A stretch of 55,917 nucleotides of DNA from a virus: the IMG/VR virus record IMGVR_UViG_3300031379_000003, positions 1 to 55,917 of that record. One strand, 5' to 3'. The notes under the pieces are model-generated. The model did no database searches. It was given only the letters and a program-made list of their open reading frames with translations, and had not been told where the DNA came from. The stretch's first letter is position 1. Each line of letters begins with the position of its first letter. Of this stretch, positions 1,879 through 27,042 are shown one piece after another. A program made the position numbers and the translations under genes.

Positions 1879-1885
1879 GTTGGGT
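1879..1885 (+). other. Candidate left boundary of the array (attI-like core)
   Basis: GTTGGGT fits the GTTRRRY core consensus and lies 21 bp upstream of the first cassette ORF. If it is the crossover point, the first cassette starts with TTGGGT, and its complement (ACCCAAC) agrees with R'' of site 1 (ATCTAAC) at 5 of 7 positions. No attC-type hairpin precedes it, as expected for an attI or a secondary insertion site. Other GTT triplets lie nearby, so this is tentative. Confidence 0.4.
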
Positions 1886-1899
1886 TTTAGGAGGTAATT

Positions 1900-2067
1900 A
1901 TGGCGACTAATTGGTTTAATGATACCGGCATTCCAAAATTATATCGTTGTACTGAATGTTGGGAGCTTTTTGAGGCAGATGAATTCGATTTTAATGAAGA
2001 GAAATGCCTTGAATGTGTAGAAAAAGAAGAAAAATCTAACCAAGCCACTGAAGCCGACAGTGAATAG
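1900..2067 (+). CDS. Cassette 1: small zinc-finger protein
   Basis: 55 residues from ATG 1900, behind AGGAGG at 1889-1894. CTEC and CLEC, about 20 residues apart, form a four-cysteine zinc-binding unit. The reading frame runs into attC site 1, whose R''-L'' arm encodes the last residues (SNQATEADSE). This tail reflects recombination-site sequence rather than protein selection, and recurs in cassettes 4 and 5. Function unknown. Confidence 0.7.
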   Translation: MATNWFNDTGIPKLYRCTECWELFEADEFDFNEEKCLECVEKEEKSNQATEADSE

Positions 2068-2092
2068 CTGCGGCTTATCGGCGGCGTTAGGC
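2034..2092 (+). repeat. attC site 1 (59 bp)
   Basis: R'' ATCTAAC (2034-2040) and R' GTTAGGC (2086-2092). Inner arms AAGCCGACAG and CTGCGGCTT pair, leaving one A extrahelical, which is the hallmark of attC strand-selective folding. Crossover would be between G2086 and T2087. Confidence 0.85.
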
Positions 2093-2107
2093 ACCAAGGA
2101 GGATAAA

Positions 2108-2353
2108 GTGAAGCAAGTTGAACGATACGAAGATATGAGTCCAACAGGGCGGTTGGTTATATGTCAGCAAGATGATGGAGATATGATTGTATCCATCATT
2201 CCCGACCGAAAAGAATCAAAGCATTTCATACAAAATGCTGAATTCTGTACTTTGTCGGGTGGCGGGCAATCATTAAATACTCGAAAGTCATTACAAAATT
2301 TGATGGAAGCTATTGAAAAAGACAATCAGGAGAGGCCACAAAATCGTGGCTAA
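2108..2353 (+). CDS. Cassette 2: hypothetical protein
   Basis: 81 residues from GTG 2108, chosen because AAGGAGG ends 5 bp upstream; an ATG at 2060 would lie inside attC site 1. The stop TAA is formed by the TAAC of R'' of site 2, so the gene fills its cassette exactly. It has mixed alpha/beta character with a GGGQSLN turn and an acidic C-terminal helix. Family not recognised. Confidence 0.75.
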   Translation: MKQVERYEDMSPTGRLVICQQDDGDMIVSIIPDRKESKHFIQNAEFCTLSGGGQSLNTRKSLQNLMEAIEKDNQERPQNRG

Positions 2354-2411
2354 CAAATCCCTAAACCAGACGGGCTAGTAAAACGCCCGCTGGTTAGGTC
2401 AGGCGTTAAAT
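2348..2411 (+). repeat. attC site 2 (64 bp)
   Basis: R'' GGCTAAC, R' GTTAAAT (matches GTTRRRY exactly). Arms CTAAACCAG-A-CGGGC and GCCCG-CTGGTTAG pair, with an extrahelical A and one bulge. The cassette's own start TTAGGC predicts R'' GCCTAAC, a 6/7 match. Confidence 0.85.
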
Positions 2412-2434
2412 TTCTAATGAATTGGAGGTAGGTT

Positions 2435-2644
2435 ATGAGCGTTAATTATATTGACCGTAGTAATGATGAAGAAATTATCGACATAGTATGTTCTGTAATG
2501 GATAACGGAACAGGGAAAGCTGAGACTGCGTATGAGCATATATTAATAAAACTTATGCAGCTTCGTAGAACTCCTATAAATTCTTTCGAGTATGACCAAA
2601 AGAAAGTTGATTTACATTATAAGCAATGGAAAGATGGAATATAA
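2435..2644 (+). CDS. Cassette 3: hypothetical protein
   Basis: 69 residues, ATG 2435, with TTGGAGG upstream. The stop TAA is within R'' of site 3. Predominantly helical and polar; no motif recognised. The compact fit between the R' of site 2 and the R'' of site 3, with its own Shine-Dalgarno and no promoter-sized gap, is typical of integron cassette genes. Confidence 0.7.
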   Translation: MSVNYIDRSNDEEIIDIVCSVMDNGTGKAETAYEHILIKLMQLRRTPINSFEYDQKKVDLHYKQWKDGI

Positions 2645-2708
2645 CAAATACCTGAACTCCGACCAGATATAGCTTTGCTAATCTGGCTGGTGAGCTCAGG
2701 CGTTATAC
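2639..2708 (+). repeat. attC site 3 (70 bp)
   Basis: R'' ATATAAC and R' GTTATAC. The inner hairpin uses CCAGAT/ATCTGG and CTGAAC..GAGCTCAG arms. The cassette start TTAAAT predicts R'' ATTTAAC, a 6/7 match. Its outer arm closely resembles sites 4, 6, 8 and 10. Confidence 0.85.
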
Positions 2709-2717
2709 GGAGGGAAA

Positions 2718-2939
2718 ATGAGCGAATTAGAAGAATTACAAGATAAGATGCGTAAAATTAAAACTTGGATTAATGCGTATCCATTAAGCGTTTTCCCTGA
2801 GCCTGATTTTAAGAAAGCGCATAAAGTTTTGAAACAGCACGGTATGACCCTTGATGCAATTTCAGCAAGTAATATGAGGCATGTTCTGAATGGTATCAAA
2901 GAAATAATTGAATCACATAACCAGGCCCCTGAACTCTGA
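2718..2939 (+). CDS. Cassette 4: hypothetical helical protein
   Basis: 73 residues, ATG 2718, behind CGGAGGG. Largely helical with a central proline-containing loop (YPLSVFPEPDF). It reads into attC site 4, which encodes the tail HNQAPEL. No family recognised. Confidence 0.7.
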   Translation: MSELEELQDKMRKIKTWINAYPLSVFPEPDFKKAHKVLKQHGMTLDAISASNMRHVLNGIKEIIESHNQAPEL

Positions 2940-2986
2940 CCCTCAATAGCTACGCTATTTTGGGTGGGTTAGCTCAGGCGTTATCT
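2915..2986 (+). repeat. attC site 4 (72 bp)
   Basis: R'' ACATAAC, R' GTTATCT. Arms CTGAACTC..GACCC and GGGT..GAG/CTCAG pair, with CAATAGC-loop-GCTATTTTG as the tip. The complement predicted from the cassette start (GTATAAC) matches R'' at 5 of 7 positions, the weakest in the array. Confidence 0.8.
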
Positions 2987-3004
2987 GTAAAGGAGATTAA
3001 AATA

Positions 3005-3205
3005 ATGCAAAGCGATCTATTGGAGGCATGCAAATATTTAATGTCATTTGTTCCAGATTGGGTAAAGATTGTACCCAAAGGACTTGACCCAACATTCTAT
3101 GGTACGTTGTCATATAAAGGCGATTTAGATGTCAAGCGACGTGTAGACGAGATAAAAGTATTGATAGAGAAAACAGATAACCAGGCCTCTGAAGCCGACA
3201 GCTAA
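3005..3205 (+). CDS. Cassette 5: hypothetical protein
   Basis: 66 residues from ATG 3005, behind AAAGGAG; upstream in-frame codons fall inside site 4. It has a helix-strand layout with a KGxLDVKRRVDEIKVLIEK segment. It reads into attC site 5, which encodes the tail DNQASEADS, almost the same as the tail of cassette 1 although the proteins are unrelated. No family recognised. Confidence 0.7.
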   Translation: MQSDLLEACKYLMSFVPDWVKIVPKGLDPTFYGTLSYKGDLDVKRRVDEIKVLIEKTDNQASEADS

Positions 3206-3233
3206 CCGCTGCGGCTGATCGCAGGCGTTATAA
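3175..3233 (+). repeat. attC site 5 (59 bp)
   Basis: R'' AGATAAC is the exact complement of G plus this cassette's start (GTTATCT). R' is GTTATAA. Arms GCCGACAGC and GCTGCGGC pair with one extrahelical A. Same structural type as sites 1 and 7. Confidence 0.9.
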
Positions 3234-3249
3234 TTTAGGGAGGGTCAAA

Positions 3250-3474
3250 ATGAATACAGGTGAAAGATACGGATGGGCTGCATTGAGTCAATGGGACATT
3301 ACTCCGGCCAATGCATACATTGAACATAAACTTATTGAAACAGCCTTGAGCAAAGAAAGCTGTAGGTTTATATTGGTAAATAGAATTGACCAAGGAGGGG
3401 GGTATCTCCGGTGTGAGTATATTGAGAAAAAAGATGTAACACCAGAAATATTACAAGATGCTGGACAATTATAA
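3250..3474 (+). CDS. Cassette 6: hypothetical protein
   Basis: 74 residues, ATG 3250, behind GGGAGGG. The stop TAA is formed by R'' of site 6. The product contains a probable beta-hairpin (RFILVNRID then GYLRCEYIEKK). No domain recognised. Confidence 0.7.
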   Translation: MNTGERYGWAALSQWDITPANAYIEHKLIETALSKESCRFILVNRIDQGGGYLRCEYIEKKDVTPEILQDAGQL

Positions 3475-3531
3475 CGAATCACTCAACTCAGACCGTGCTA
3501 ATCACACGGCTGGTTAGCTCAAGCGTTATAT
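3469..3531 (+). repeat. attC site 6 (63 bp)
   Basis: R'' TTATAAC is the exact complement of GTTATAA at this cassette's start. R' is GTTATAT. The hairpin tip is CCGTG-CTAAT-CACGG, with outer arms like sites 3, 4, 8 and 10. Confidence 0.9.
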
Positions 3532-3552
3532 TCTTTGAAAGGAGGAAGAGTC

Positions 3553-4098
3553 ATGAGGAAAATACCAACAATCTTTAAAAGGAACCCTGAGAATATGCGT
3601 GAAATCCTTCATGAACATCATCTTGATTGTGAATGGGTTTTTAATGGTGAAGGCGTGGCGACTCGAAAATATGACGGCACATGCGTAAAAATAGAAAACG
3701 GGAATTATTTCAAACGCAGAGAAGTAAAAAAGGGTAGGGTTGCACCAAATAATTTTATTGAAGAAGAATTTGATGAAAATACAGGGAAGCGTGTTGGTTG
3801 GGTTCCAGTAGATCGAAGCCTTAAAGAAGACCGGTGGCACATGGAAACTTTCTCAGAAAAGCTATCTGATGGCACATATGAGCTTGTCGGGCCAAAAATT
3901 CAAGGGAATCCAGAGGGATATAATGTTCATGCCCTTGTGAAACATGAGAAAGCTCAAGTATTTAAAACCGTGCAGAGAACATTTGAAGGTATATCCGATT
4001 TCATGAAAGATAAGGACATTGAAGGAATCGTATTTCACCACCCTGATGGAAGAATGGGAAAAATCAAAAAGAAGGATTATGGACAAAAACGAATATAA
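3553..4098 (+). CDS. Cassette 7: RNA ligase, DUF5565-like
   Basis: 181 residues. The start at ATG 3553 is chosen for AAAGGAGG upstream; an in-frame ATG at 3535 precedes it. Motif I of covalent nucleotidyltransferases is KYDG (K39, in TRKYDGTCVKI). GTYELVG (about 108-113) resembles motif III/IIIa, EGIVF (157-161) motif IV and KIKKKD (170-175) motif V. This order fits small RNA ligases that activate a 5'-phosphate through lysyl-AMP, as in phage repair of tRNAs nicked by host anticodon nucleases. It is the only cassette with a confidently assigned enzyme and is twice as long as the others. The stop lies in R'' of site 7. Confidence 0.8.
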   Translation: MRKIPTIFKRNPENMREILHEHHLDCEWVFNGEGVATRKYDGTCVKIENGNYFKRREVKKGRVAPNNFIEEEFDENTGKRVGWVPVDRSLKEDRWHMETFSEKLSDGTYELVGPKIQGNPEGYNVHALVKHEKAQVFKTVQRTFEGISDFMKDKDIEGIVFHHPDGRMGKIKKKDYGQKRI

Positions 4099-4150
4099 CA
4101 AGGCTACTCCAGCCGACGCAATAAAGCGCGGCTTACCGGCGGCGTTATAA
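4093..4150 (+). repeat. attC site 7 (58 bp)
   Basis: R'' ATATAAC is the exact complement of GTTATAT at this cassette's start. R' is GTTATAA. Arms AGCCGACGC and GCGCGGCT pair with one extrahelical A. This is the shortest site. Confidence 0.9.
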
Positions 4151-4173
4151 AGATTTTTTAGGAGGTTTAAATA

Positions 4174-4386
4174 ATGTTTAAAGATAGAGTAGATTGGCCA
4201 ACATTTATTTTAGGAATAGCTTGGTGTGCTTTTTTCTATGGTTTACTGGTTGCTAAAGTCGGTACAATGACAGAAGATCCTTATTTAATTACTTGGTGGG
4301 ATGCAATATGGATGCCTTTTGTTGGTGCAGTTATGCCTTTTTTAATAGGTGTTTCATCAATGATAAAACTAAAAAAATCTTTATAA
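4174..4386 (+). CDS. Cassette 8: small membrane protein
   Basis: 70 residues, ATG 4174, behind AGGAGG. Two hydrophobic segments (about residues 9-29 and 47-64) flank a short acidic loop, predicting a helical hairpin in the inner membrane with a lysine-rich C-terminus. The stop is in R'' of site 8. Function unknown; small membrane proteins in cassettes can act in exclusion or toxicity, but nothing here shows that. Confidence 0.7.
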   Translation: MFKDRVDWPTFILGIAWCAFFYGLLVAKVGTMTEDPYLITWWDAIWMPFVGAVMPFLIGVSSMIKLKKSL

Positions 4387-4441
4387 CAATTCACTCAACT
4401 CCGACCCAGCATAGCTGGGCGGGTTAGGTCAGGCGTTAGCA
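4381..4441 (+). repeat. attC site 8 (61 bp)
   Basis: R'' TTATAAC is the exact complement of GTTATAA at the cassette start. R' is GTTAGCA. The hairpin is CCCAGC-ATA-GCTGGG, with outer arms CTCAACTCCGACC and GGGTTAGGTCAGGC. Confidence 0.9.
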
Positions 4442-4463
4442 ATCCTTAAAAGGAGGATAGTAG

Positions 4464-4748
4464 ATGAGGAAAAAAGAGGAAGTTGAAGTTAAATATTGTG
4501 ATATTTGCGGTGCAAGAGAAGACGATTTGCATACCATCCTTACGTGCTGGTCCTGCGGAAAGGAAGCATGCTCGCAGCATTATCATCTTGTGTCGACCGA
4601 AAATAAGAGGCGACATACTTATCTGTGCGAGGATTGTGATAGAAAAATGGAGAGCAAACTTGATGTTTTGTTTGAGCAATTTAGCGAGCACCATAAAAAT
4701 GTCGCTAACGATAGCATTCACTCGACCAGTAAAAACGCTGGCGAGTGA
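4464..4748 (+). CDS. Cassette 9: zinc-finger protein
   Basis: 94 residues, ATG 4464, behind AAAGGAGG. CDICG, CWSCGKEACSQHYH and CEDC provide enough Cys/His ligands for two zinc ions in a RING/B-box-like layout. The frame traverses nearly all of attC site 9, so its last 15 or so residues are attC-encoded. Role unknown; possibly protein or nucleic-acid binding. Confidence 0.7.
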   Translation: MRKKEEVEVKYCDICGAREDDLHTILTCWSCGKEACSQHYHLVSTENKRRHTYLCEDCDRKMESKLDVLFEQFSEHHKNVANDSIHSTSKNAGE

Positions 4749-4763
4749 TGCTTGGCATTATGC
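4703..4763 (+). repeat. attC site 9 with altered crossover base (61 bp)
   Basis: R'' CGCTAAC (6/7 match to the predicted TGCTAAC). The R' position reads ATTATGC instead of GTTATGC: the conserved G at the crossover is A4757. That this really is a cassette junction is shown by the next cassette, whose R'' GCATAAC is the exact complement of G plus TTATGC. Arms CACTCGACCAG and CTGGCGAGTG pair. Confidence 0.8.
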
Positions 4764-4789
4764 AGATTTAAGAAAGAAGGTTCCAGACC

Positions 4790-5011
4790 ATGTTTGATAA
4801 AGAAGCATATGAACAATATGTGAGACAGCGAATCAGTCTTGAACGGAAAATAGAGGAAATAGGTGATTTTCGTGGTAGCAAAGAAGTACAAATTCAGATG
4901 CAATTTGTTGAAGAAAGACTGTTAGCAAAAATCAAACAGTTCTATTACCATGCTACTCAGGAAATGGACGCGCTTAGAATGGTTCTTATTGAAAGTTGCA
5001 AAGATGCATAA
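4790..5011 (+). CDS. Cassette 10: hypothetical coiled-coil protein
   Basis: 73 residues, ATG 4790, preceded by GAAGG. Almost entirely helical with heptad-like leucines and isoleucines (ISLERKIEEI, VEERLLAKIKQF), so probably a coiled coil. The stop TAA lies in R'' of site 10. Function unknown. Confidence 0.65.
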   Translation: MFDKEAYEQYVRQRISLERKIEEIGDFRGSKEVQIQMQFVEERLLAKIKQFYYHATQEMDALRMVLIESCKDA

Positions 5012-5066
5012 CCAGTCTCTGAACTCCGATCTGCTAATCGCAGGCGGGTTATCTCAGGCGTTAGAT
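5006..5066 (+). repeat. attC site 10 (61 bp)
   Basis: R'' GCATAAC is the exact complement of G plus the cassette start TTATGC. R' is GTTAGAT. The tip is TCTGC-TAAT-CGCAGG, with outer arms CTGAACTCCGA and GGGTTATCTCAGGC. Confidence 0.9.
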
Positions 5067-5253
5067 GGACAATATGATAAGTGCAGAAATTATAGAAAAT
5101 GCTTGTAGACAAATCATGGTGGCAATGAAAGAAGGCCAGTTTACCAAAAGGGATTTAGAATTTTTGCTTAATTTTTTTCAGCAGATAGTGAAAAGCACTG
5201 AAAAACTTCTTAATCATCCATCTAACAAACAAATGAACTTTGACCCAAAATAA
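5065..5253 (+). CDS. Cassette 11: hypothetical helical protein
   Basis: 62 residues if started at ATG 5065, which overlaps the R' core of site 10; ATG 5074 is the alternative. Neither has a clear Shine-Dalgarno, unlike most other cassettes, so expression may depend on coupling or on sequence upstream. Helical and amphipathic (DLEFLLNFFQQIVKSTEKLL). It reads into attC site 11. Family unknown. Confidence 0.6.
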   Translation: MDNMISAEIIENACRQIMVAMKEGQFTKRDLEFLLNFFQQIVKSTEKLLNHPSNKQMNFDPK

Positions 5254-5289
5254 ACTGCTATTTTGGGCAGGTTATTAGCGGCGTTAGGA
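5220..5289 (+). repeat. attC site 11, right end of the array (70 bp)
   Basis: R'' ATCTAAC is the exact complement of GTTAGAT at the cassette start. R' GTTAGGA also supplies the AGGAG Shine-Dalgarno of the following gene. The hairpin is CCCAAAATA-loop-TATTTTGGG. No further attC follows within the next gene length. Confidence 0.9.
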
Positions 5290-5297
5290 GATAAGTA

Positions 5298-5666
5298 ATG
5301 GAAGATAGACCAGAAACATTGCCAAGTAAAACAACTAAAATCAAGACAGGCTATGGCAATCTTTATGTAAACGTAACTTTTAAAGAGGATAAACCATTTG
5401 AAGTATTTGCATTTATGGGAAAAAGTGGTGGGAGTTTAATGGCAAAATCTGAAACAATAGGCAGACTTTGCTCGTTAGCTCTCAGGAATAGTATCCCTCT
5501 TGAAGATATTATTAAACAATTAAAAGATATTATGGATGATAAGCCTCTTTATGTAGGAAAAGGCTTAGTAAAGTCTATCCCTGATGCTATTGCACAAGTG
5601 CTTGAAAAATATATTAAGGAAGTAGGAAGCAGTAAAAAAAAAGAAAAGAGTAACCTAAAGAACTAG
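5298..5666 (+). CDS. TSCPD-domain protein
   Basis: 122 residues. NLYVNVTFKEDKPFEVFAF, then MGKSGG..ETIGRLCSLALRN and a C-terminal SIPDAIAQVLEKYI, match the TSCPD domain found at the C-terminus of vitamin-B12-dependent ribonucleotide reductases and as stand-alone proteins. Here the usual T-S-C-P-D reads KSIPD, so the cysteine is missing. The role may be regulatory or structural in nucleotide metabolism. Its Shine-Dalgarno lies in the R' core of attC site 11. It has no attC of its own, so it is either the resident gene flanking the array or a cassette that lost its site. Confidence 0.75.
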   Translation: MEDRPETLPSKTTKIKTGYGNLYVNVTFKEDKPFEVFAFMGKSGGSLMAKSETIGRLCSLALRNSIPLEDIIKQLKDIMDDKPLYVGKGLVKSIPDAIAQVLEKYIKEVGSSKKKEKSNLKN

Positions 5667-5688
5667 AAAACACTGAAAGTTAATTCTT

Positions 5689-7233
5689 ATGACCCATCAC
5701 AAAACCCACAAAAGAGCTAAAGTCGTAGGTGCCCCCGGAACAGGCAAGACCACCTACCTTCTTAAACTCATCGAGCAGGCCGCTAAAAGATATGATCCTG
5801 AACGAATAGGTGCCGTATCTCTAACCAATGCAGCAATCGAAGAAATGAGAGACCGGGTAAAAAAACAGACGGGCCTGCCCAGAGAAGCTGCTAAAAATAT
5901 TCGTACCATACACTCCACATGTTTTAATCTTCTTGAGCTAAAAAAAGAAAAGGTAGCAGACAAAAAGATCAAGGAATTCAATGAAGCTTACCCTGAATGG
6001 AGAATGCCTCTCAATGTAGAAATAACTGAGAGGGATGAATTTAAGGAAGATACCGACAAACATACCCCAGAACAGAATAAACGCCGGTTTGCTGAAATTC
6101 AAATGCTGAGACATCAGATGGTACCTTTCAAAGAATGGTCGGATCTACGTCTTAAAAGTATGTACACGGATTGGCAGAACTGGATGAGAGAAAATGATTA
6201 TACAGACTTTACTGGAATGCTCGAAAAAACTTTAGAATCAAAGCTTGGGCCAGATATAGATATCCTTATGGTAGATGAAGCACAGGATATGTCCAGATTA
6301 TCTGTAAATTTATTAGAAATGTGGGGAAAAGATACAGTTTCAACGGTCTATGTAGGTGATTCTGATCAGGCAATTCTGAGATTCGCGGGGGCAGTACCCG
6401 AAGCCTTTGTAAACTTAAATCATACATGGATGAAGATTCTAGGTAAATCCTACAGGGTGCCTAAAAAAGTTCATGAGTATGCCATGGAGGTAATCAGTCA
6501 AATAAAAAATAGGGAAGATGTAACATATGAACCAACTAGGATAGAGGGCTCAGTAATAAGATGCACAGAACCAGATTTGAGTTTAGATGGAACTCATATG
6601 ATTTTGGGGAGATGTAATTATCATCTTAACCGCTGGCGACATTATCTGTTGAGAAATAGAGTTATGTGGCACAATCCCTATAGACCTAGAGATATGGTCT
6701 ATAATCCTTTAAATACTAAGGTATGGAGAGCAGCCAGGAACTATGTAAAATTAGGAAGAGGAGAGGTAATAAACTCCAATGATTTTATACATATGACTCG
6801 GAACGTGATTGCAGATGGAAATATTATAAGAGGAATGAAGACTCAGGTTGAAGATATGAAGCTCGATAAAGAGATAGATATGTTCGGAGTAATATCATCT
6901 GGAATATTTACGAAAGAATTTTTAACTTTTGAAAAAACCCTGGAGGAAGTTTTTAAGTTAGTTGGTCAGAGTGGAGAAATGCTAAAGAACTGTGAAGATG
7001 TGATGGAAGAGCCAAAGGTAATTTTAGGTACTTTTCACTCGGTTAAGGGAGGAGAAGCGGATCACGTCTGGTTGGATATGGGAACCTCACCGGAATGTCT
7101 ACGAAGCTGTATTAACAATGTAGAACAATTTTACGATGAAGTCAGGGTAGCTTATGTAGGAATTACTAGAGCCAAGGAAAGTGTAGGATTGCTTAATAGT
7201 TATGGAATAAAAGGACAGGTATGGGGGATGTAG
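5689..7233 (+). CDS. Superfamily 1 DNA helicase, UvrD/PcrA-like
   Basis: 514 residues. Walker A GAPGTGKT at residues 14-21; motif II VDEAQD at 195-200; motif III YVGDSDQAILRFAGA; motif IV-like KSYRVPKKV; motif V GTFHSVKGGEAD; motif VI YVGITRAKE. These cover the whole SF1A set. At 514 residues it is shorter than cellular UvrD (about 720), as phage versions often are. It should be an ATP-dependent 3'-5' helicase for phage replication or recombination. Translation starts at ATG 5689 with only a weak Shine-Dalgarno. Confidence 0.92.
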   Translation: MTHHKTHKRAKVVGAPGTGKTTYLLKLIEQAAKRYDPERIGAVSLTNAAIEEMRDRVKKQTGLPREAAKNIRTIHSTCFNLLELKKEKVADKKIKEFNEAYPEWRMPLNVEITERDEFKEDTDKHTPEQNKRRFAEIQMLRHQMVPFKEWSDLRLKSMYTDWQNWMRENDYTDFTGMLEKTLESKLGPDIDILMVDEAQDMSRLSVNLLEMWGKDTVSTVYVGDSDQAILRFAGAVPEAFVNLNHTWMKILGKSYRVPKKVHEYAMEVISQIKNREDVTYEPTRIEGSVIRCTEPDLSLDGTHMILGRCNYHLNRWRHYLLRNRVMWHNPYRPRDMVYNPLNTKVWRAARNYVKLGRGEVINSNDFIHMTRNVIADGNIIRGMKTQVEDMKLDKEIDMFGVISSGIFTKEFLTFEKTLEEVFKLVGQSGEMLKNCEDVMEEPKVILGTFHSVKGGEADHVWLDMGTSPECLRSCINNVEQFYDEVRVAYVGITRAKESVGLLNSYGIKGQVWGM

Positions 7234-12120: not shown

Positions 12121-13569
12121 ATGAGAATCAATAACCTTGTAAACAAAATTTTAAATTTTGGCGAAAAAATTAATGGTTTTAAGTACAGACCATATCAACG
12201 AAAACGGGCTGGCCAGATAGTTAAAGCTGTTGTGTTACATGAGCCCGGACAATGGTCAACGCTTTGGTCGAGAAAAAGTGGGAAGAGCGAGATGCTTAAA
12301 GCCACAATGCTTTCGCTAATGACACTTTTGCCTGAGCTTGCTAAGACCTATCTGGCAAAAGAATTTCCACGCCTAAAACTTTTTAGAGACGGGATAAATA
12401 TAGCCTTTGCTGGTCCGAAAGAAAGTATAGCTAAAATTCCATTTATTCGACTGCGAAGACAAGCTAGACAAAAAAAATTTACCGATATTCTTAACTCGTT
12501 AGATTTACAGGTAATCGCCTCAAACTCAGTTCAATTTGAACTGTCAAATGGTTCGACATCTACTGCTTTTAGCGGTTCTGAAACAGCAGCTAACGAAGGA
12601 CCAGGCGCTGAAATACTTTTGGTGGACGAAGCAAGTCTGCTGAGTCCTTTCTCTCTCTACAAGATACTAAGTCCAATGATTGCACACGTTGATGGGCTTC
12701 TGAGCCTTACCGGAACACCCGGACGGAAGAAATGTCCCTTCCTTACTGCTATTGATTACAATAAACGTAAATTCCCTCATCTCCATCAAGAAATTCCTTA
12801 TACTGGGGTCATCCCCTACTCGAAAGATTATGCTTCGTATATAGACGCAGAGATTGATCGCCTGCCTGGTGGAGTAAAGAATCCATTCTTCAGGATGAAT
12901 TATTTGCTTGAATGGTTAATTGCAGAAGGACATTTCATTGACTTTGCTCAGTTTCTAAAACTAGGATCAGGTAAGCGAAATTCTGATGGTGGACGACTTG
13001 TAGCTGGAGTCGATTGGGGTAAAGTTACTTCTGCAACTACGATAACTGTACTTGAAGGTAAACAAGAACTTGCGGCTGTTGTAGATTTATTTGAGATTAA
13101 AGGCGATTGGGATTATCAGTTTCAATATATAATTCCATTTTTAAATGAATATCCTAATATTCAAACAATTTTCTCTGAGTCAACTGGTTCTGGAGATCCT
13201 TTAACAACAAGATTAGCAGCAGAATTTGGAGATGATGTGGTTCACCATAAATTTATGTCTGCACCTTACAAAGATAAGATTTTTACAAATCTTCATACAG
13301 AGATAACAGCAGTGCCTTCCAGATTTCAGTACTTTGATGACGAGAGTCCGGAAGCCAGAAATTTTATTAGACAATTTCTTGATGCAGAACAGGAAGTAAA
13401 AGGAAAATTGCTGACAGTTCATAAACCAGGAGAAGAAGGCGCTGAAGATGACTTTTTATTTTCAACCGCTCTCGCTAATGATGCTTTACAGTCAACAGCT
13501 GAAAGTAGTATTGAATATCAAACAACTGGAAAAAAACGTGAAATTTTTGCTGGATTAGAAGAATATTAA
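12121..13569 (+). CDS. terL: Terminase large subunit
   Basis: 482 residues. The ATPase domain has Walker A RKSGKS (51-56), Walker B LLVDE (166-170) and coupling motif TGTP (197-200). The C-terminal RNase H-like nuclease has GVDWG with D298, the second acidic site around SESTGSGD (352-359) and the third at DDFLFSTALAND near 447-458. This is the ATP-driven motor that cuts concatemers and fills the prohead. Domain layout and the following DUF935-like portal are reminiscent of Mu-like head modules. Confidence 0.93.
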   Translation: MRINNLVNKILNFGEKINGFKYRPYQRKRAGQIVKAVVLHEPGQWSTLWSRKSGKSEMLKATMLSLMTLLPELAKTYLAKEFPRLKLFRDGINIAFAGPKESIAKIPFIRLRRQARQKKFTDILNSLDLQVIASNSVQFELSNGSTSTAFSGSETAANEGPGAEILLVDEASLLSPFSLYKILSPMIAHVDGLLSLTGTPGRKKCPFLTAIDYNKRKFPHLHQEIPYTGVIPYSKDYASYIDAEIDRLPGGVKNPFFRMNYLLEWLIAEGHFIDFAQFLKLGSGKRNSDGGRLVAGVDWGKVTSATTITVLEGKQELAAVVDLFEIKGDWDYQFQYIIPFLNEYPNIQTIFSESTGSGDPLTTRLAAEFGDDVVHHKFMSAPYKDKIFTNLHTEITAVPSRFQYFDDESPEARNFIRQFLDAEQEVKGKLLTVHKPGEEGAEDDFLFSTALANDALQSTAESSIEYQTTGKKREIFAGLEEY

Positions 13570-13582
13570 TGGAGGTACTATC

Positions 13583-15220
13583 ATGACACTCCGCTCAACG
13601 TTTGTGAATTTTTTACCAAAGGGGCTATTATCAAAAGGATTATTATCACGATTCAAAGAATCTGACAAAACAAAATCTGATAAAACAGCAGATATCAAGA
13701 AACCTCCCACAGATACAATTGATACTACCAGCATAAAAAGCATGGCTGGAATTCTGGGAGCTGCTGATGCAAATCCAGATGAAATCCTGAAAAAACAAGG
13801 GGTTAAAATTTATGATGAGATGGAGGCTAAGGATACCCATGTTTATTCTGTATATCAAACTCGTAAACTTGCTATAGCAATGACACCATGGGAAATTTAT
13901 CCTGGTGATGATAGTGATCGGGCAAGAGAAATTGCTGATTTTGTTTTTACCGCGATTGATGATTGTAAAGGTACTTTTGCAGAGGACATTAAACAACTTC
14001 TCGATGCAATTGGTAAGGGATTTTCTATCCTGGAAATTGTATGGAAGTTAGTTGAAAAAGGAAGATGGAAAGGCAAGTATATGCTTGATGAGCTACTTTT
14101 TCACAAACAAAAATATTGGTTTTTCAAAGATAAACGTTGGCATAAATCTGATGAGAGCGTAGTTCTTTTTGGAGATTCGGTAATGCGGGGTAAACCTGTT
14201 CCCTGGGAAAAAATTATTCATTTTGCTTATGATGCTGAAGATAATTTATATGGAAAAGCTGCTTTTAAACCATGTTATTACTTTTACTGGTTTAAGAAAG
14301 AAGGATGGAAATCCTGGATTGTTTTCCTTAATAAATATGGTACACCAACTGCAGTTGGAAAATATCCAAAGAGTACAAAGCCCTCGGAGCAAACAAAACT
14401 CCTTGATATAGTAGAAACAATTCAGGAAGAGACTGGAATAATAATTCCAGATGGAATGAATATTTCTTTTCTGGAAGCTTCTCATGCAGGAACTGTTTCT
14501 TATCGAGATCTTGCCGATGCATGCAATGCTGAAATATCAAAAGCTATACTTGGTGCAACTCAGACCGTGGAAGAAGGCAGGCGCGGTTCTTATGCATTAT
14601 CTAGGGCGCACTCTGAAGTCAGACGTGAGAGGGTAGAGGCAGATGTAGTTGAAATTTCGGATGTAATACAGCAACAACTGGTAAGGAGACTCGTTGACTT
14701 CAATTTTGTTACCGATATCTATCCTCAGTTTATAATGAAAACATTTACTGGAAAAGATACAGAGATTGCTAGAAAGAAAGTACCGATAGCTAAGATTCCT
14801 GAAAAGCCAACGGAACCAATTCCTGAAGAAGTTCCTGAAGAAGTTCCTGAAGAAGTTCCTGAAGAGCTAATAGGTGCACCAATAATTCCGGAAGAAAAGA
14901 TAGTTCCGGAAAAAAAGATAGTTCCGGAAAAACCAAAAAAGGAAATAGTTCCAGAAGAAACCGAAGTTACTGCAGAGCTTAAGAAAACTTTTGAACGTGT
15001 AAAGAGTTCTGTGTTGAAAAATTATGAGAGAAAACAATCTCCAGAGCCCATAAATGTAGGCCCCATCAAAAAAATACTAAAAGATAAATTTGATGATAAA
15101 AAAGCATTCAGACTGGCAAAAAAAGTCAAGACCTATATAGAAGTAAGGATTAAGCCTGAAAATATCGAGGAGGTCTTTGGTGAGGCATTAAAACAATTAG
15201 TGGAGGAGTTAAAAAAATAA
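13583..15220 (+). CDS. Portal protein, Mu gp29/DUF935-like
   Basis: 545 residues from ATG 13583 behind GGAGG. Residues about 50-400 carry the DUF935 features: DTHVYSVYQTRKLAI, a FSILEIVW helix, GKPVPWEKIIHF, YGKAAFKPCYYFYWFKK and a late ATQTVEEGRRGSYALSRAHSEV segment. It would form the dodecameric DNA gate at the capsid vertex. The C-terminus is an unusual extension of about 145 residues with proline-glutamate repeats (14821-14930) followed by a basic helical tail. Its stop overlaps the next ATG. Confidence 0.88.
   Translation: MTLRSTFVNFLPKGLLSKGLLSRFKESDKTKSDKTADIKKPPTDTIDTTSIKSMAGILGAADANPDEILKKQGVKIYDEMEAKDTHVYSVYQTRKLAIAMTPWEIYPGDDSDRAREIADFVFTAIDDCKGTFAEDIKQLLDAIGKGFSILEIVWKLVEKGRWKGKYMLDELLFHKQKYWFFKDKRWHKSDESVVLFGDSVMRGKPVPWEKIIHFAYDAEDNLYGKAAFKPCYYFYWFKKEGWKSWIVFLNKYGTPTAVGKYPKSTKPSEQTKLLDIVETIQEETGIIIPDGMNISFLEASHAGTVSYRDLADACNAEISKAILGATQTVEEGRRGSYALSRAHSEVRRERVEADVVEISDVIQQQLVRRLVDFNFVTDIYPQFIMKTFTGKDTEIARKKVPIAKIPEKPTEPIPEEVPEEVPEEVPEELIGAPIIPEEKIVPEKKIVPEKPKKEIVPEETEVTAELKKTFERVKSSVLKNYERKQSPEPINVGPIKKILKDKFDDKKAFRLAKKVKTYIEVRIKPENIEEVFGEALKQLVEELKK
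14821..14930 (+). repeat. Pro-Glu-encoding tandem repeats in the portal gene
   Basis: Four near-identical 12-bp units TCCTGAAGAAGT (14821-14868) are followed by about two and a half 18-bp units around AAGATAGTTCCGGAA (14884-14930). They encode a PEEV/PEKK linker, probably an extended spacer between portal body and the C-terminal tail. Confidence 0.75.
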
Positions 15221-18200
15221 TGAATCTTGATGAATTATCAGACACTAAAAAGTCAGTCACCCAACTAAGAGCAGAGGTTGAGAAACTCCGTGAAGATTAT
15301 ACTAAATGGAAAGCTGATCATCTTAATTCCCAGGATGAAAAAATTATAAATAAATTTCTGTTAATTAAAGCAGAGCTCAAAAAACGAAAAAAGTCTTTGC
15401 CATTTAAAGAAACTGATCTCGATCTTGAAGCAAAAATGCTGAGTGAGATAGCGAAAATTAAGACATTACCAATTATTCCAACTGAGCATACATTTCGAGA
15501 GAGTTCTTTGCAAAGACCGCATAAATGCAAATACTGCAGCAAGTCTGCTACACTAGCAATTGTTTGGGCAGAAGGACGAGCTTTTATTCCAGTGTGTGAT
15601 AATCATAAAGAAAAAGCTATTTACCAAATTGAAAAAATTAACCACGATAAAGTTAAAGAAATTTTGCCTTTACCGGAGAAAGATGCAGAGTACGCCCCGG
15701 TTGGTCCCAGTGGAGAAAAATTAGGAACGGTAATACAACTTAAAGATATTGAACCTTACTTCAAAGATTTTGAGGTATGTGATCCAGTATCATGGATAGT
15801 CGGAGGAATAATTACTCATCCGGAAGGAACAAAGAATGATGCGGATATTCTCTTGACTATTCCATCTGAAGAGGAACTTAAACGAATTATTGAATTTAGA
15901 ATTCATCGAATGTTTCCCAAAAATTTACAAAATAGATTACAATTACTTACAGAAGAAAAAGGAGGGATGAGCCCGTTTACAAGCTATCTTCCACTTTATC
16001 GTCTAATCATGGAAAGAATTCCTGATGCAGAGATTGTGAAGATGGAAGAGTTAGATGTCGGAGAGTTGGATGTGAAAGCTGAGATAAAACTAAGAACAAA
16101 GAATACTAATAAGCAACAAGCTGAAGCAAACAAAGCAGCAAAAAATGATAAAGTTACTTTTAATGAGTTTATTTTAGCCATGAAGCCAAAACGCGGATTT
16201 TTGCCAGGTCAAGCTCAATCGCTTGAATCCTTTCTTTCACTCTGGACTGATGACCAATTTCCTGTATATTGTTTTCATAGAGATACAATAGTCTGGGGCA
16301 AAAAATTCAAAAAAATTCAAGAGATACAAATTGGTGATAAAGTTTATTCCAAGTCTGGAAAATTGCAAGAAGTGTTAGGGATATTTTCAACTATAGATGA
16401 TCGCTCTCTACGAAAAATTAAATTATTAAATCAACAAGATCCACTTATCTGCTCTGCTGATCACAAATTTTTGGCAATCAAATCTCAAAAATGTTCATGG
16501 TCTAATCGTAAACATCTTGTCTGTAGAAAAAATTGTGGTGAGCAGAAGTACGGATGTCAGCATCGATATAAAAATTATAAAGCTAAGTGGATAGAAGCTA
16601 ATTCTCTTGAAACTGGTGATTTTCTTGCTATACCAAAAATCAGGAATCAAATAAAAAAATTCTCTTTTAATTTCGCAAAAATATCTGGATTGAAAAGTTT
16701 AACTCGAGGCAAGGGTTATATTCAAAAAAATGAAGTTATTGATTTTTTTAATTTTAGAATTCACGGAGAATCTGATCTCTATAGGCTGTTTGGTTTATAT
16801 TTAGCTGAAGGAGATGCAGGGGGAGGAAAAGGTATTGGGTTTTCATTTGGTCTACATGAAACTGATTTAATTGAAGAAACAAGTTATTTATGTGAGAAAT
16901 ATTTTCGTTCTCCAAAGATTTATTATTTAGATCATGCTTGTAGAATACAGCTTAATTCAACAGTTCTCTCAAGGGCGTTTGCCAAATTGTTTAATACTGG
17001 TGCTCGAAATAAAAAAATTCCAGATTTCGTATTTCATCTCTCTAAAGAACAACTTTTAGCATTTCTATATGGATATTGGCGAGGTGATGGTGCATTACAT
17101 GCCTCGGGTTTTCGTTTTTCAACTCATTCAGAAACTATTGCTAATCAACTTTTGGTACTACTAAATCAATTAAACCTTCTAGCTGTAAAATATCGAACTT
17201 CACCTAAAAGTTTTGAACTGAATGGCTATAAAAGTAGCTCTCTGGGTGGATGGGAAGTTGTAGTAACTGGAAAACAAATTGAACGAATTAAATGGCCAGA
17301 AATCAAAGATCCTCCATTAAGATCTTATCAGAAATGGTGGGATGATGAAGAGTATTTTTGGATTCCGATATTAGACATCGAATTTCTTTCAAGAAATAAG
17401 GAAGAACTTTTTAACATCCAAACTGAAGATGAAAGTTATATTCCTGGAGTTATAGCGCATAATTCTTCCAGGAAGGCCGATGGTATAAACACAGAATGGC
17501 ACATCTCGAAAGATGGTAAAGTAATAGTTTATACAGAGGATGGTGTTGACGAAACTAGTTCTTTCCCTCAGACTATTGAAGAAGCCAAAAAGTTATCTCC
17601 TGGGCATGATATGATTCTCTTAGCTGAAGCAGAATGGTGGGAAGATGGTCAGCACTATCCTCGCGAAGTTGCAGCTGGTAATATCCATAAAATAAATCCT
17701 AATGAAGATGGTATTATTCTTAATGTCTATGACATGATTTTTTACGATAAAGATATTCATAAAAACCCGTTTGAAGAACGCCGGGAGCTGCTGCAAAAAT
17801 TAAACTTTCCGCAAAAAACTGAACTTCCAGATCCGAAACATAATTGGAATTTGATTCCACATACAAAAAATGAAAATCGAGAGGAATTGAAAAAAGAGAC
17901 GGAAAGATTGAGGAAGTTAGACGGTTCTGAAGGAAATGTAGCAAAACAGGCCTCCTCTTCCTATGACCTGAAAAATAGGAGAAAGAATCTTTGGATAAAA
18001 TATCATGTAAGTACTATTTTTACCGCAACTGTGTTGAATTCACTTGAAACTAAAACAAAAGAGGTGTATAACCTTGAATATGGTATCCTGGCTGGCAATA
18101 GAGTTATTGAAGAAAAGGATACTCGAGAAATTAATGGAAAAAAAGCTGTACATGTAGGGAAATCGTTTAGTACAAAAGAAAATCCAGCCGAAGGATCTGG

Positions 18201-18435
18201 AATTCTTATTGAGGCTGAGACAATCAATGTCACGTATGACGCCAGAAGTAAAACTTTTGATTTAAGTGCATGGGCGCCAAGGATGCTCGGGATAACAAAC
18301 AAGAAACCTCAGACTATAGATGAGATAGAACGGCAGGCCATAAAAGATCATGTATTTCAAGCAAAGATTATAGATAAAAAAGGTAAGATACACTATTTGC
18401 CAGGAAAGAGCGGTGAGGAGGTAGTAAGTAAGTGA
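15220..18435 (+). CDS. ATP-dependent polynucleotide ligase interrupted by a LAGLIDADG intein
   Basis: 1071 residues, about 673 after splicing. The N-terminal region has a zinc knuckle (HKCKYC..CDNH, 101-129) and a VGG-x10-DAD motif (194-209) like a nucleotidyltransferase. The intein is C351-N748: block A CFHRDTIVWG, block B CSADHKFL, LAGLIDADG blocks LFGLYLAEGDA and FLYGYWRGDGA, block G VIAHN, then S749. The ligase resumes with SSRKADG, K752 being the lysyl-AMP lysine of motif I; LLAEAEWW and VYDMIFYD look like motifs III/IV. Its location among packaging genes suggests a virion-associated or polyvalent protein. The end encodes the Shine-Dalgarno of the next gene. Confidence 0.85.
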   Translation: MNLDELSDTKKSVTQLRAEVEKLREDYTKWKADHLNSQDEKIINKFLLIKAELKKRKKSLPFKETDLDLEAKMLSEIAKIKTLPIIPTEHTFRESSLQRPHKCKYCSKSATLAIVWAEGRAFIPVCDNHKEKAIYQIEKINHDKVKEILPLPEKDAEYAPVGPSGEKLGTVIQLKDIEPYFKDFEVCDPVSWIVGGIITHPEGTKNDADILLTIPSEEELKRIIEFRIHRMFPKNLQNRLQLLTEEKGGMSPFTSYLPLYRLIMERIPDAEIVKMEELDVGELDVKAEIKLRTKNTNKQQAEANKAAKNDKVTFNEFILAMKPKRGFLPGQAQSLESFLSLWTDDQFPVYCFHRDTIVWGKKFKKIQEIQIGDKVYSKSGKLQEVLGIFSTIDDRSLRKIKLLNQQDPLICSADHKFLAIKSQKCSWSNRKHLVCRKNCGEQKYGCQHRYKNYKAKWIEANSLETGDFLAIPKIRNQIKKFSFNFAKISGLKSLTRGKGYIQKNEVIDFFNFRIHGESDLYRLFGLYLAEGDAGGGKGIGFSFGLHETDLIEETSYLCEKYFRSPKIYYLDHACRIQLNSTVLSRAFAKLFNTGARNKKIPDFVFHLSKEQLLAFLYGYWRGDGALHASGFRFSTHSETIANQLLVLLNQLNLLAVKYRTSPKSFELNGYKSSSLGGWEVVVTGKQIERIKWPEIKDPPLRSYQKWWDDEEYFWIPILDIEFLSRNKEELFNIQTEDESYIPGVIAHNSSRKADGINTEWHISKDGKVIVYTEDGVDETSSFPQTIEEAKKLSPGHDMILLAEAEWWEDGQHYPREVAAGNIHKINPNEDGIILNVYDMIFYDKDIHKNPFEERRELLQKLNFPQKTELPDPKHNWNLIPHTKNENREELKKETERLRKLDGSEGNVAKQASSSYDLKNRRKNLWIKYHVSTIFTATVLNSLETKTKEVYNLEYGILAGNRVIEEKDTREINGKKAVHVGKSFSTKENPAEGSGILIEAETINVTYDARSKTFDLSAWAPRMLGITNKKPQTIDEIERQAIKDHVFQAKIIDKKGKIHYLPGKSGEEVVSK
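16270..17463 (+). mobile_element. Intein with LAGLIDADG homing endonuclease
   Basis: 398 codons in frame within the ligase gene. Splicing residues are all present: Cys1, block B histidine (CSADHKF), penultimate His-Asn (AHN) and +1 Ser. Both LAGLIDADG helices keep their acidic residues (AEGD and RGDG), so the homing endonuclease may be active. Insertion next to the ligase active site is typical of inteins, which favour invariant motifs. Confidence 0.9.
18364..18435 (+). repeat. Duplicated gene-end segment, copy 1
   Basis: The last codons of the ligase gene (KIIDKKGKIHYLPGKSGEEVVSK in two parts: KIIDKKGKIH and YLPGKSGEEVVSK) recur at 19248-19316 in an unrelated gene. The DNA core TTGCCAGGARARAG then GGTGAGGAGGTAGT is nearly identical and includes a strong Shine-Dalgarno. 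Confidence 0.75.
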
Positions 18436-24605: not shown

Positions 24606-25151
24606 ATGGAAAAAAAAGAATATAAGAATCAAGCAGAAGTTTTGATAGATCTTTTGAAAGAGTTTAATAAAAAAGATTTGATAATCGCAGAGATAGGAAT
24701 TTGGAAATCAAGTACTACGAAACGAGTTTTAAGCACATGTAAAGATATTATTTCTCAATATTGGGCAATCGATTTTTGGGAATTTACTAGCCATTGGAAT
24801 TATAGATCTCGTACACACGAATTCTGGGATGCGTGTTATCTTAAAGCATGTAGACTGATGCGCTGGTTTCCACAATTACATATTTTACGAATGTCTTCTC
24901 TTGAAGCAGCTAGATTATTTCCTGAAAAATATTTCGATTTGGTTTTTATAGATGCTGATCATAAATACGAATCTGTTTTGAATGATATTACAGCTTGGCT
25001 TCCGCTAGTTGGGTATGAAGGATTACTGACAGGACATGATTATGGCGGTAAGAAAATTGGTGTTAAGCAAGCGGTAGATGAAATTTTCGGCTCGGATAAT
25101 ATAGAACTATTAGACGCAAGTGTATGGGTAAAAAAAATAGGGAGGCTTTAA
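24606..25151 (+). CDS. SAM methyltransferase, Methyltransf_24-like, copy A
   Basis: 181 residues. IAEIGIWKSSTTKRVL is the SAM-binding loop, YWAIDFW the acidic ribose-binding strand, and DLVFIDADHKYESVLNDI plus GHDYGG..GVKQAVDEIFG are the family signature. Such enzymes act on sugars or small molecules in surface-glycan clusters. Four related sequences lie within the next 4 kb. Confidence 0.8.
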   Translation: MEKKEYKNQAEVLIDLLKEFNKKDLIIAEIGIWKSSTTKRVLSTCKDIISQYWAIDFWEFTSHWNYRSRTHEFWDACYLKACRLMRWFPQLHILRMSSLEAARLFPEKYFDLVFIDADHKYESVLNDITAWLPLVGYEGLLTGHDYGGKKIGVKQAVDEIFGSDNIELLDASVWVKKIGRL

Positions 25152-26479: not shown

Positions 26480-27042
26480 AGAAGATGATGCGAACTAAAG
26501 AAGAAATATTAAAGATTATAGAAAATACTAGGTGGCGTTGGGATATAATACCAGCCCTCTTGAAAAGTTTTAATAGAAAAGATTTAAAAATAGCTGAAAT
26601 AGGTATTTGGGATTCTACGAATATGAAACGAGTTTTAGAAGATTGTGGTGATATTATATCGCAATATTGGGCAATAGATTTTTGGCAACCTAGTAATCAT
26701 TCATCATATGTAGATGTACCAATGGAGAAATGGGATGAGTTATATGCTTACGCATGTAAATTTATGCGTTGGTATCCTCAGCTTTGTGTTGTAAGAATGT
26801 CTTCTCTTGAAGCAGCTAGATTATTTCCTGAAAAATATTTTGATATAGTATTTATAGACGCTGATCATAAATACGAATCTGTAATGGCTAATATTAAAAC
26901 TTGGTCGCCGTTGATTAAAGAAGGCGGATTAATAATGGGACATGATCGTAATAAACATCATCCTGGTGTTGTAAAAGCAATAACAGAATGTTTTGATGGA
27001 ATAATAAAAGCACGTGATAGTGTATGGATTAAAGAATTATAA
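26473..27042 (+). CDS. SAM methyltransferase, Methyltransf_24-like, copy B
   Basis: 189 residues if started at ATG 26473, which abuts GGAGG; ATG 26485 or 26488 has better spacing. Very close to copy A: KIAEIGIWDSTNMKRVL, YWAIDFW, MRWYPQL, RMSSLEAARLFPEKYFDIVFIDADHKYES. The block RMSSLEAARLFPEKYFD is identical in the two copies, showing recent duplication. Confidence 0.8.
   Translation: MLKKMMRTKEEILKIIENTRWRWDIIPALLKSFNRKDLKIAEIGIWDSTNMKRVLEDCGDIISQYWAIDFWQPSNHSSYVDVPMEKWDELYAYACKFMRWYPQLCVVRMSSLEAARLFPEKYFDIVFIDADHKYESVMANIKTWSPLIKEGGLIMGHDRNKHHPGVVKAITECFDGIIKARDSVWIKEL

Follow-up and report, generated by a model that had tools for sequence, protein, structure and literature searches.

A textbook integron consists of one integrase and one attI. 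Integron parts are also found on phage genomes, as in Shewanella phage M16-3, prophages of Vibrio anguillarum and P1 with a class 1 integron, and in these cases intI is present in cis. The closest described systems are clusters of attC sites lacking a nearby intI (CALINs) in phages: Qi et al. 2023 (PMC9892861) report 17 integrase-less attC clusters among 10,705 phage genomes, and recombination of 5 of the 6 phage attC sites tested with attI1 by IntI1 in E. coli. Here we describe a locus of this kind in IMG/VR virus record IMGVR_UViG_3300031379_000003, whose 55,917 bases were analysed at full length and are called the window. At positions 1879-5289, the window carries what is nearly certainly an integron cassette array, in which attC sites alternate with small genes, headed by a 42-bp leader resembling the attI of a Desulfobacterales integron.

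Like the phage CALINs (PMC9892861), the window array is a cluster of at least two attC sites close together, with small cassettes and no intI nearby. In the cited parts of that study no Desulfobacterota host and no attI without intI is noted; here, a probable cognate attI stands before each array, there are several arrays per phage, and the arrangement is seen in three contigs, two of which have a cassette gene in common. The locus resembles sedentary chromosomal integrons in its attI sequence, attC sites, one-strand array and G|TT junctions, but its arrays are short and multiple and lie on phage contigs in which no intI was detected; in this it also differs from M16-3, the V. anguillarum prophages and P1. 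Cassettes reportedly also enter places away from the main integron at secondary sites termed attG, which Loot et al. are said to have described in 2024 and which are non-classical targets. The orphan sites described here, unlike attG, match an intI-attI region: the match covers 42 bp in the phages and, in the majority of bacterial copies, 85 bp or more. In the DeltaattI-type cassettes of mobile integrons (PMC12901181), displaced attI-derived sites are still recombined by IntI1; there, the site is the recombination site of unusual cassettes, whereas complete cores head separate arrays here. As judged from a limited search of the open-access literature, neither attI copies without intI in phages nor multiple attI copies in a single bacterial genome (as many as nine in Desulfobacula) appear to have been described.

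We consider it likely that these phages carry intI-less copies of attI into which an integrase of the host loads cassettes in trans. The first-pass annotation of the window, made by a model from the sequence alone, had recognised an integron-type cassette array in a phage genome, and this is supported by the analysis below; its remark that such an array would be unusual is tempered by the attC clusters already published for phages (Qi et al. 2023, PMC9892861). The most informative parts of the locus, which are the attI-like leader, a second array in the same phage and the link to Desulfobacterales integrons, had been missed.

attC sites of the window array

Two covariance models were used to search for attC sites. 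R1 was built from ten window sites (1-8, 10 and 11), so finding those same sites with it is a circular result. R3 draws on 35 sites in other contigs and includes no window sequence; its alignment was made using R1, which leaves its structure not fully independent, although its sequences are. In the window, R3 recovered all ten canonical sites, at E values from 2.7e-10 to 6e-5, and gave no further matches. These are attC 1 (2034-2092, 56.1 bits), attC 2 (2348-2411, 45.4 bits), attC 3 (2639-2708, 49.7 bits), attC 4 (2915-2986, 38.8 bits), attC 5 (3175-3233, 48.7 bits), attC 6 (3469-3531, 46.9 bits), attC 7 (4093-4150, 56.0 bits), attC 8 (4381-4441, 53.1 bits), attC 10 (5006-5066, 55.8 bits) and attC 11, the last site (5220-5289, 34.1 bits). 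All are on the plus strand, as are the leader, the cassette ORFs, site 9 and the RF-1-like, helicase, terminase and portal genes described below. As a positive control, R3 recovered the three attC sites of the class 1 integron in a P1 phage, and across about 374 kb of unrelated viral DNA it gave a single marginal match (E 0.72). R1 likewise detects the attC sites carried by M16-3. Two exact attC patterns occurred 5 and 3 times in the window, compared with 0 in 100 shuffles.

The attC-like sites thus lie where the first-pass annotation had placed them, and the covariance-model search that it proposed was positive for ten of the eleven it had listed, each with R'', L'', L' and R' and extrahelical bases. 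The remaining one, site 9 (4703-4763), has ATT in place of GTT and was missed by both R1 and R3, but it folds at z -4.8 and has an intact relative at L056:1875-1932; it is degenerate and probably fuses cassettes 9 and 10. On the bottom strand, 9 of the 11 sites folded better than their own dinucleotide shuffles (z -2.4 to -4.8), with bulged bases present; sites 7 (z -0.8) and 10 (z -1.9) folded weakly. Promoter-like matches in the region, as candidates for a cassette promoter (Pc), were at the level of shuffles.

Cassette junctions

When a cassette has been inserted as a circle, its opening bases, just past the G|TT junction, are complementary to the R'' box at its other end. In the window, this own-cassette comparison gave 37 matches at 44 variable positions where 23.5 were expected, and only 2 of 200,000 permutations did as well (p ~1e-5). 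Matches within the same site were at chance level; the same-site entry of site 11 rests on a mislocated junction, which leaves the own-cassette result unaffected. Strict 7/7 matches were seen at sites 5, 6, 7, 8 and 11. Site 10, which had been counted as a sixth perfect site, has A as its crossover base and is perfect only when G is supplied by convention. Junctions of this kind are left when circular cassettes are joined at G|TT, and the window sites are boundaries of recombined cassettes.

These results bear on another explanation, that the repeats between the small phage genes serve to terminate transcription or are hairpins for RNA processing. An attC hairpin is able to terminate transcription weakly, and two terminator-like matches occur in the region, no more than in shuffles. 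Pairing of R' and R'' across the gene of one's own cassette would be meaningless for a terminator, however, and R3 recognises known attC sites of class 1 as well; we give this explanation practically no credence.

The leader and further arrays in phage contigs

The 42-bp leader (1841-1882; the match by R2, a sequence model of the core, is listed as L001:1887-1926) ends at the first GTT of the window array, and the first cassette runs from the GTT at 1879. The whole window recurs, 100% identical, within a longer contig, IMGVR_UViG_3300031368_000001 (G001, 108,285 bases), which continues for 52 kb past one end and for 44 bases past the other. Beyond the end of the window, G001 has a second array with its own leader (array 2, G001:47.1-50.4 kb, or L029:7138-10500), in which R1 finds four sites at 47.4-50.2 kb and one more was placed by eye. 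The two leaders are identical at 36 of 39 bases. In the last cassette of array 2 the attC is truncated; 1.6 kb past the array is a lone cassette that has no leader before it and scores 9/9 in the circularisation test.

We scanned 2.9 million viral contigs with two leader patterns. The second pattern was found only in G001 and two other contigs, G004 (3300008516_000145, 48,923 bases, with portal, RusA and phage integrase genes) and G013 (3300031553_000021, 32,598 bases, with terminase, portal, capsid and tape measure genes); the first, of 30 bases, was found in these three and in L055 and L057, where no attC follows and the matches were treated as chance. G004 has three arrays with a leader ahead of each, and G013 has two tandem leaders followed by one array. 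The tandem pair (L056:507-585) is spaced 36 bp apart, as if attI itself had recombined as a 36-bp unit. Those IMG/VR contigs that have R1 matches but lack the leader fall outside this comparison. Alignment A2 brings together leader copies from phages (7) and from Desulfobacterales (14). When G001, G004 and G013 are compared with the bacterial core, exactly 2, 3 and 2 best matches stand out; they agree at 32-38 of 42 bases and all lie directly before arrays, compared with 28 of 42 for the best of ten shuffles. At the level of sequence, the 42-bp core at the head of each array has the character of a cognate attI.

The circularisation test was extended to the 37 cassettes of G001, G004 and G013. 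The own-cassette mean was 7.97 of 9, with 15 perfect, and the same-site mean was 5.23, with none perfect; the own-cassette sum was reached by 0 of 100,000 shuffles. That 15 of 37 junctions are perfect at 9/9 is as expected from recent recombination.

Several cassettes in these arrays lack a clear open reading frame (ORF), at L029:7780-7960, L029:10086-10236, L047:7066-7190 and L047:7230-7375, and their ends are long perfect complements of up to 13 bp; these are possibly small RNA cassettes. The two in array 2 were considered as tRNAs, an assignment that neither ARAGORN nor Rfam supported (L029). Rfam gave nothing on L047, and on the window and array 2 it gave no attC family and no RNA except one tRNA-Pro.

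Bacterial attI copies and their probable integrase

The 30-base leader pattern was next applied to 84,980 bacterial and archaeal genomes. It matched 14 times, and all 14 matches were in Desulfobacterota, mostly Desulfobacula and relatives. Plasmids gave no match and phages gave one weak match (E 0.06) that left the 3' part of the core uncovered. When R2 was run on 292 genomes of Desulfobacterales, strong copies were found in about 20, with up to nine in one Desulfobacula bin. In four genomes (G017:C96, G018:C138, G069:C1 and G118:C250), the distance between a core copy and the start of a divergent intI is 60-370 bp, and these four intI genes are 81-100% identical to a Desulfobacula IntI (P0001) and form one clade. 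A further intI of this kind in G298 (93%) ends at a contig edge, and that of G014 is a fragment. Some intI is present in 129 of the 292 genomes; among those listed, intI genes with 61% identity or less had no strong core copy seen beside them. Because the core adjoins the divergent intI of the P0001 clade in four genomes, the leader is most likely the cognate attI of this one Desulfobacterales IntI clade.

The other bacterial copies lie in ordinary chromosomal surroundings. Five Desulfobacterales genomes (G017, G018, G016, G105 and G287) have three to nine dispersed attI copies each, several followed by cassettes, and L098 and L100 have a similar first cassette gene behind an orphan copy. The first cassette behind the bacterial copy scored 9/9 in the circularisation test at L061, L063, L065 and L067, where about 0.2 would be expected by chance (an estimate); L065 is an intI-adjacent copy. 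The attI site appears to be detachable: as many as nine copies are present in one bacterial genome and two or three in each phage, with the integrase elsewhere.

In most bacterial copies, conservation spans no less than 85 bp, frequently more, and takes in the intergenic region beside intI. Between phage and bacterial copies, identity is 78% in the 42-bp core and 31% in the 45 bp upstream, a stretch in which the bacterial copies are 72% identical among themselves. This difference indicates that the phages keep the core only. IntI reads attI as double-stranded DNA by sequence (PMC11023631), and core-only retention fits selection for recognition.

The same comparison bears on the proposal that a host attI and its cassettes were captured passively, by illegitimate or homologous recombination, and then duplicated and exchanged among phages, the arrays being inert cargo. 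Events of this type are proposed for phage attC clusters by Qi et al. 2023 (PMC9892861), and with G001 leaders that are 92% identical over 39 bp, one of them could be a duplicate. The phage copies, however, are without the upstream part conserved in most bacterial copies, so a recent block capture is unlikely; in addition, the arrays mostly hold different cassettes, and many junctions are perfect.

A cassette gene shared by two phages, and similar attC sites in Desulfobacterales

Over 218 bp, the cassette 4 gene of the window shares 92% identity with the cassette that opens one of the G004 arrays (G4-b). The blastn matches between the window contig and G004 are otherwise confined to leaders and attC sites. 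In G004, this gene carries a different attC, and the best match of the window attC 4 (88% over 57 bp) is the attC of another G4-b cassette. The first-pass annotation had suggested a search of related phages for different cassettes at the same place, and different cassettes at the same boundary are indeed present in other phages. When relatives of the window phage were sought by its helicase or its terminase large subunit (TerL), the only close match was G001, its own longer contig, so there are no near relatives with other cassettes for comparison. Relatives of cassette 4 in 20 other viral contigs have no attC adjoining the gene, and these relatives therefore carry no information on mobility beyond G004. 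A cassette gene common to G4-b and the window could also have been moved by phage recombination, as passive capture would have it; against this, the gene and the attC of cassette 4 are combined differently in the two phages. Taking both sets of observations together, we think passive capture unlikely.

On the bacterial side, DNA 82-88% similar to window attC sites is present in Desulfobacterales genomes, and attC 7 in particular has similar sites (82-85%) in three of them. The RNA ligase encoded by cassette 7 has relatives in one Desulfobacterales genome and no close relatives in other viral contigs. A blastn search with the array gave no match among phage records and one match among plasmids, a 167-bp part of cassette 7.

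Integrase and the proposed mechanism

No intI was found next to attI in G001, G004 or G013, contigs that may be incomplete. In a tblastn search with IntI1 and the Desulfobacula IntI, nothing below E 0.07 was obtained from G001 (108 kb, including the window), G004 (49 kb) or G013 (33 kb). In G004, a tyrosine integrase of the phage type is encoded between two arrays (G004:3665-4804, L047; phrog_1, E 7e-30); this protein matches an ordinary phage integrase family and has no match to IntI. An intI-like gene does occur in another viral record, KX853513.1 (Virus Rctr41k, from a DAMO/AAA enrichment culture), where positions 4680-5678 encode a protein 45% identical to IntI1; R1 found no attC within 8 kb of it.

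Alternatively, the phages could supply their own integrase, or a satellite or co-infecting element could provide it; the gene would then lie outside the sequenced part of the genome, or the enzyme would be a highly diverged tyrosine recombinase. The completeness of the contigs is uncertain, some temperate phages carry intI, and the G004 enzyme is positioned between arrays. Nevertheless, the three contigs yielded no IntI homologue, the G004 integrase matches an ordinary phage family, and the attI core has its cognate integrase in a bacterial IntI clade; a phage or satellite source is in our judgement improbable, even more so than passive capture.

The reading that we prefer, loading by a host integrase in trans, would operate as follows. 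The phage carries attI and cassettes without the integrase, the attI having been copied from a Desulfobacterales chromosomal integron. During infection, host IntI would recognise two substrates, the double-stranded 42-bp attI core and, in circular cassettes, the folded bottom strand of attC, and cassettes would be inserted at G|TT. The phage genome could in this way sample and shuffle small genes from a pool common to other phages and hosts. With somewhat less confidence, we favour an extended form, in which integrons of one Desulfobacterales lineage are split, with one intI and many dispersed attI copies; phages would have taken the minimal core in several copies, the host integrase would load and reshuffle cassettes in the phage genomes in trans, and phage and chromosome would share one cassette pool. 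The host range, action of host IntI on the phage copy, arrays that are still active and any fitness benefit are what we infer from these comparisons.

Several points weigh against this mechanism. Desulfobacterales would be the host on the kinship of attI and attC only. All three phage records may be incomplete, so intI could be missing from them. The whole-record PF00589 search missed the G004 integrase, which makes its integrase negative weak and means that it understates recombinases; tblastn is the better negative, yet a distant recombinase could escape it. The window and G001 show 100% identity, and the two assemblies may not be independent; the bacterial orphan attI copies rest partly on draft metagenome bins, and the R'' boxes and junctions in the 37-cassette test were placed by eye.

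If the host enzyme does act on the phage copies, the phages would own a programmable slot for small accessory genes, and there would be a route for cassettes between phage and chromosome. A direct test of the origin and travel of cassettes becomes possible, and the 42-bp core offers a cheap sequence marker for more such phages and hosts.

Gene content of the array and its surroundings

Most cassettes of the window array encode small proteins whose function is unknown. Such ORFs are found in cassettes 1 (1900-2067, 55 aa, CxxC-type), 2 (2108-2353, 81 aa), 3 (2435-2644, 69 aa), 5 (3005-3205, 66 aa), 6 (3250-3474, 74 aa), 10 (4790-5011, 73 aa) and 11 (5065-5253, 62 aa). The ORF of cassette 4 (2718-2939, 73 aa) has a copy of 93% amino acid identity in G004. 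Cassette 7 (3553-4098, 181 aa) encodes the RNA ligase (phrog_14301, E 4.7e-58; Pfam RLIG1, E 1.7e-10), cassette 8 (4174-4386, 70 aa) a membrane protein as judged from its sequence, and cassette 9 (4464-4748, 94 aa) a protein with a weak zinc-finger likeness. A gene downstream of attC 11 (5298-5666) is without attC.

The array is surrounded by tailed-phage genes, including those for TerL, portal, endolysin and helicases. An RF-1-like gene (1467-1817, phrog_3122) forms the upstream flank and a DNA helicase gene (5689-7233, phrog_1967) the downstream flank; TerL is encoded at 12121-13569 (phrog_2, E 9.3e-9) and the portal protein at 13583-15220 (phrog_113, E 5.8e-85). The adjoining ORF of 1071 aa (15220-18435) may contain an intein, as suggested by a CFHRDT start, an AHN/S end and a Hint-like stretch between them. 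Farther downstream, a direct repeat of about 350 bp (24651-24998 and 26557-26904), 77% identical, lies inside two similar small genes.

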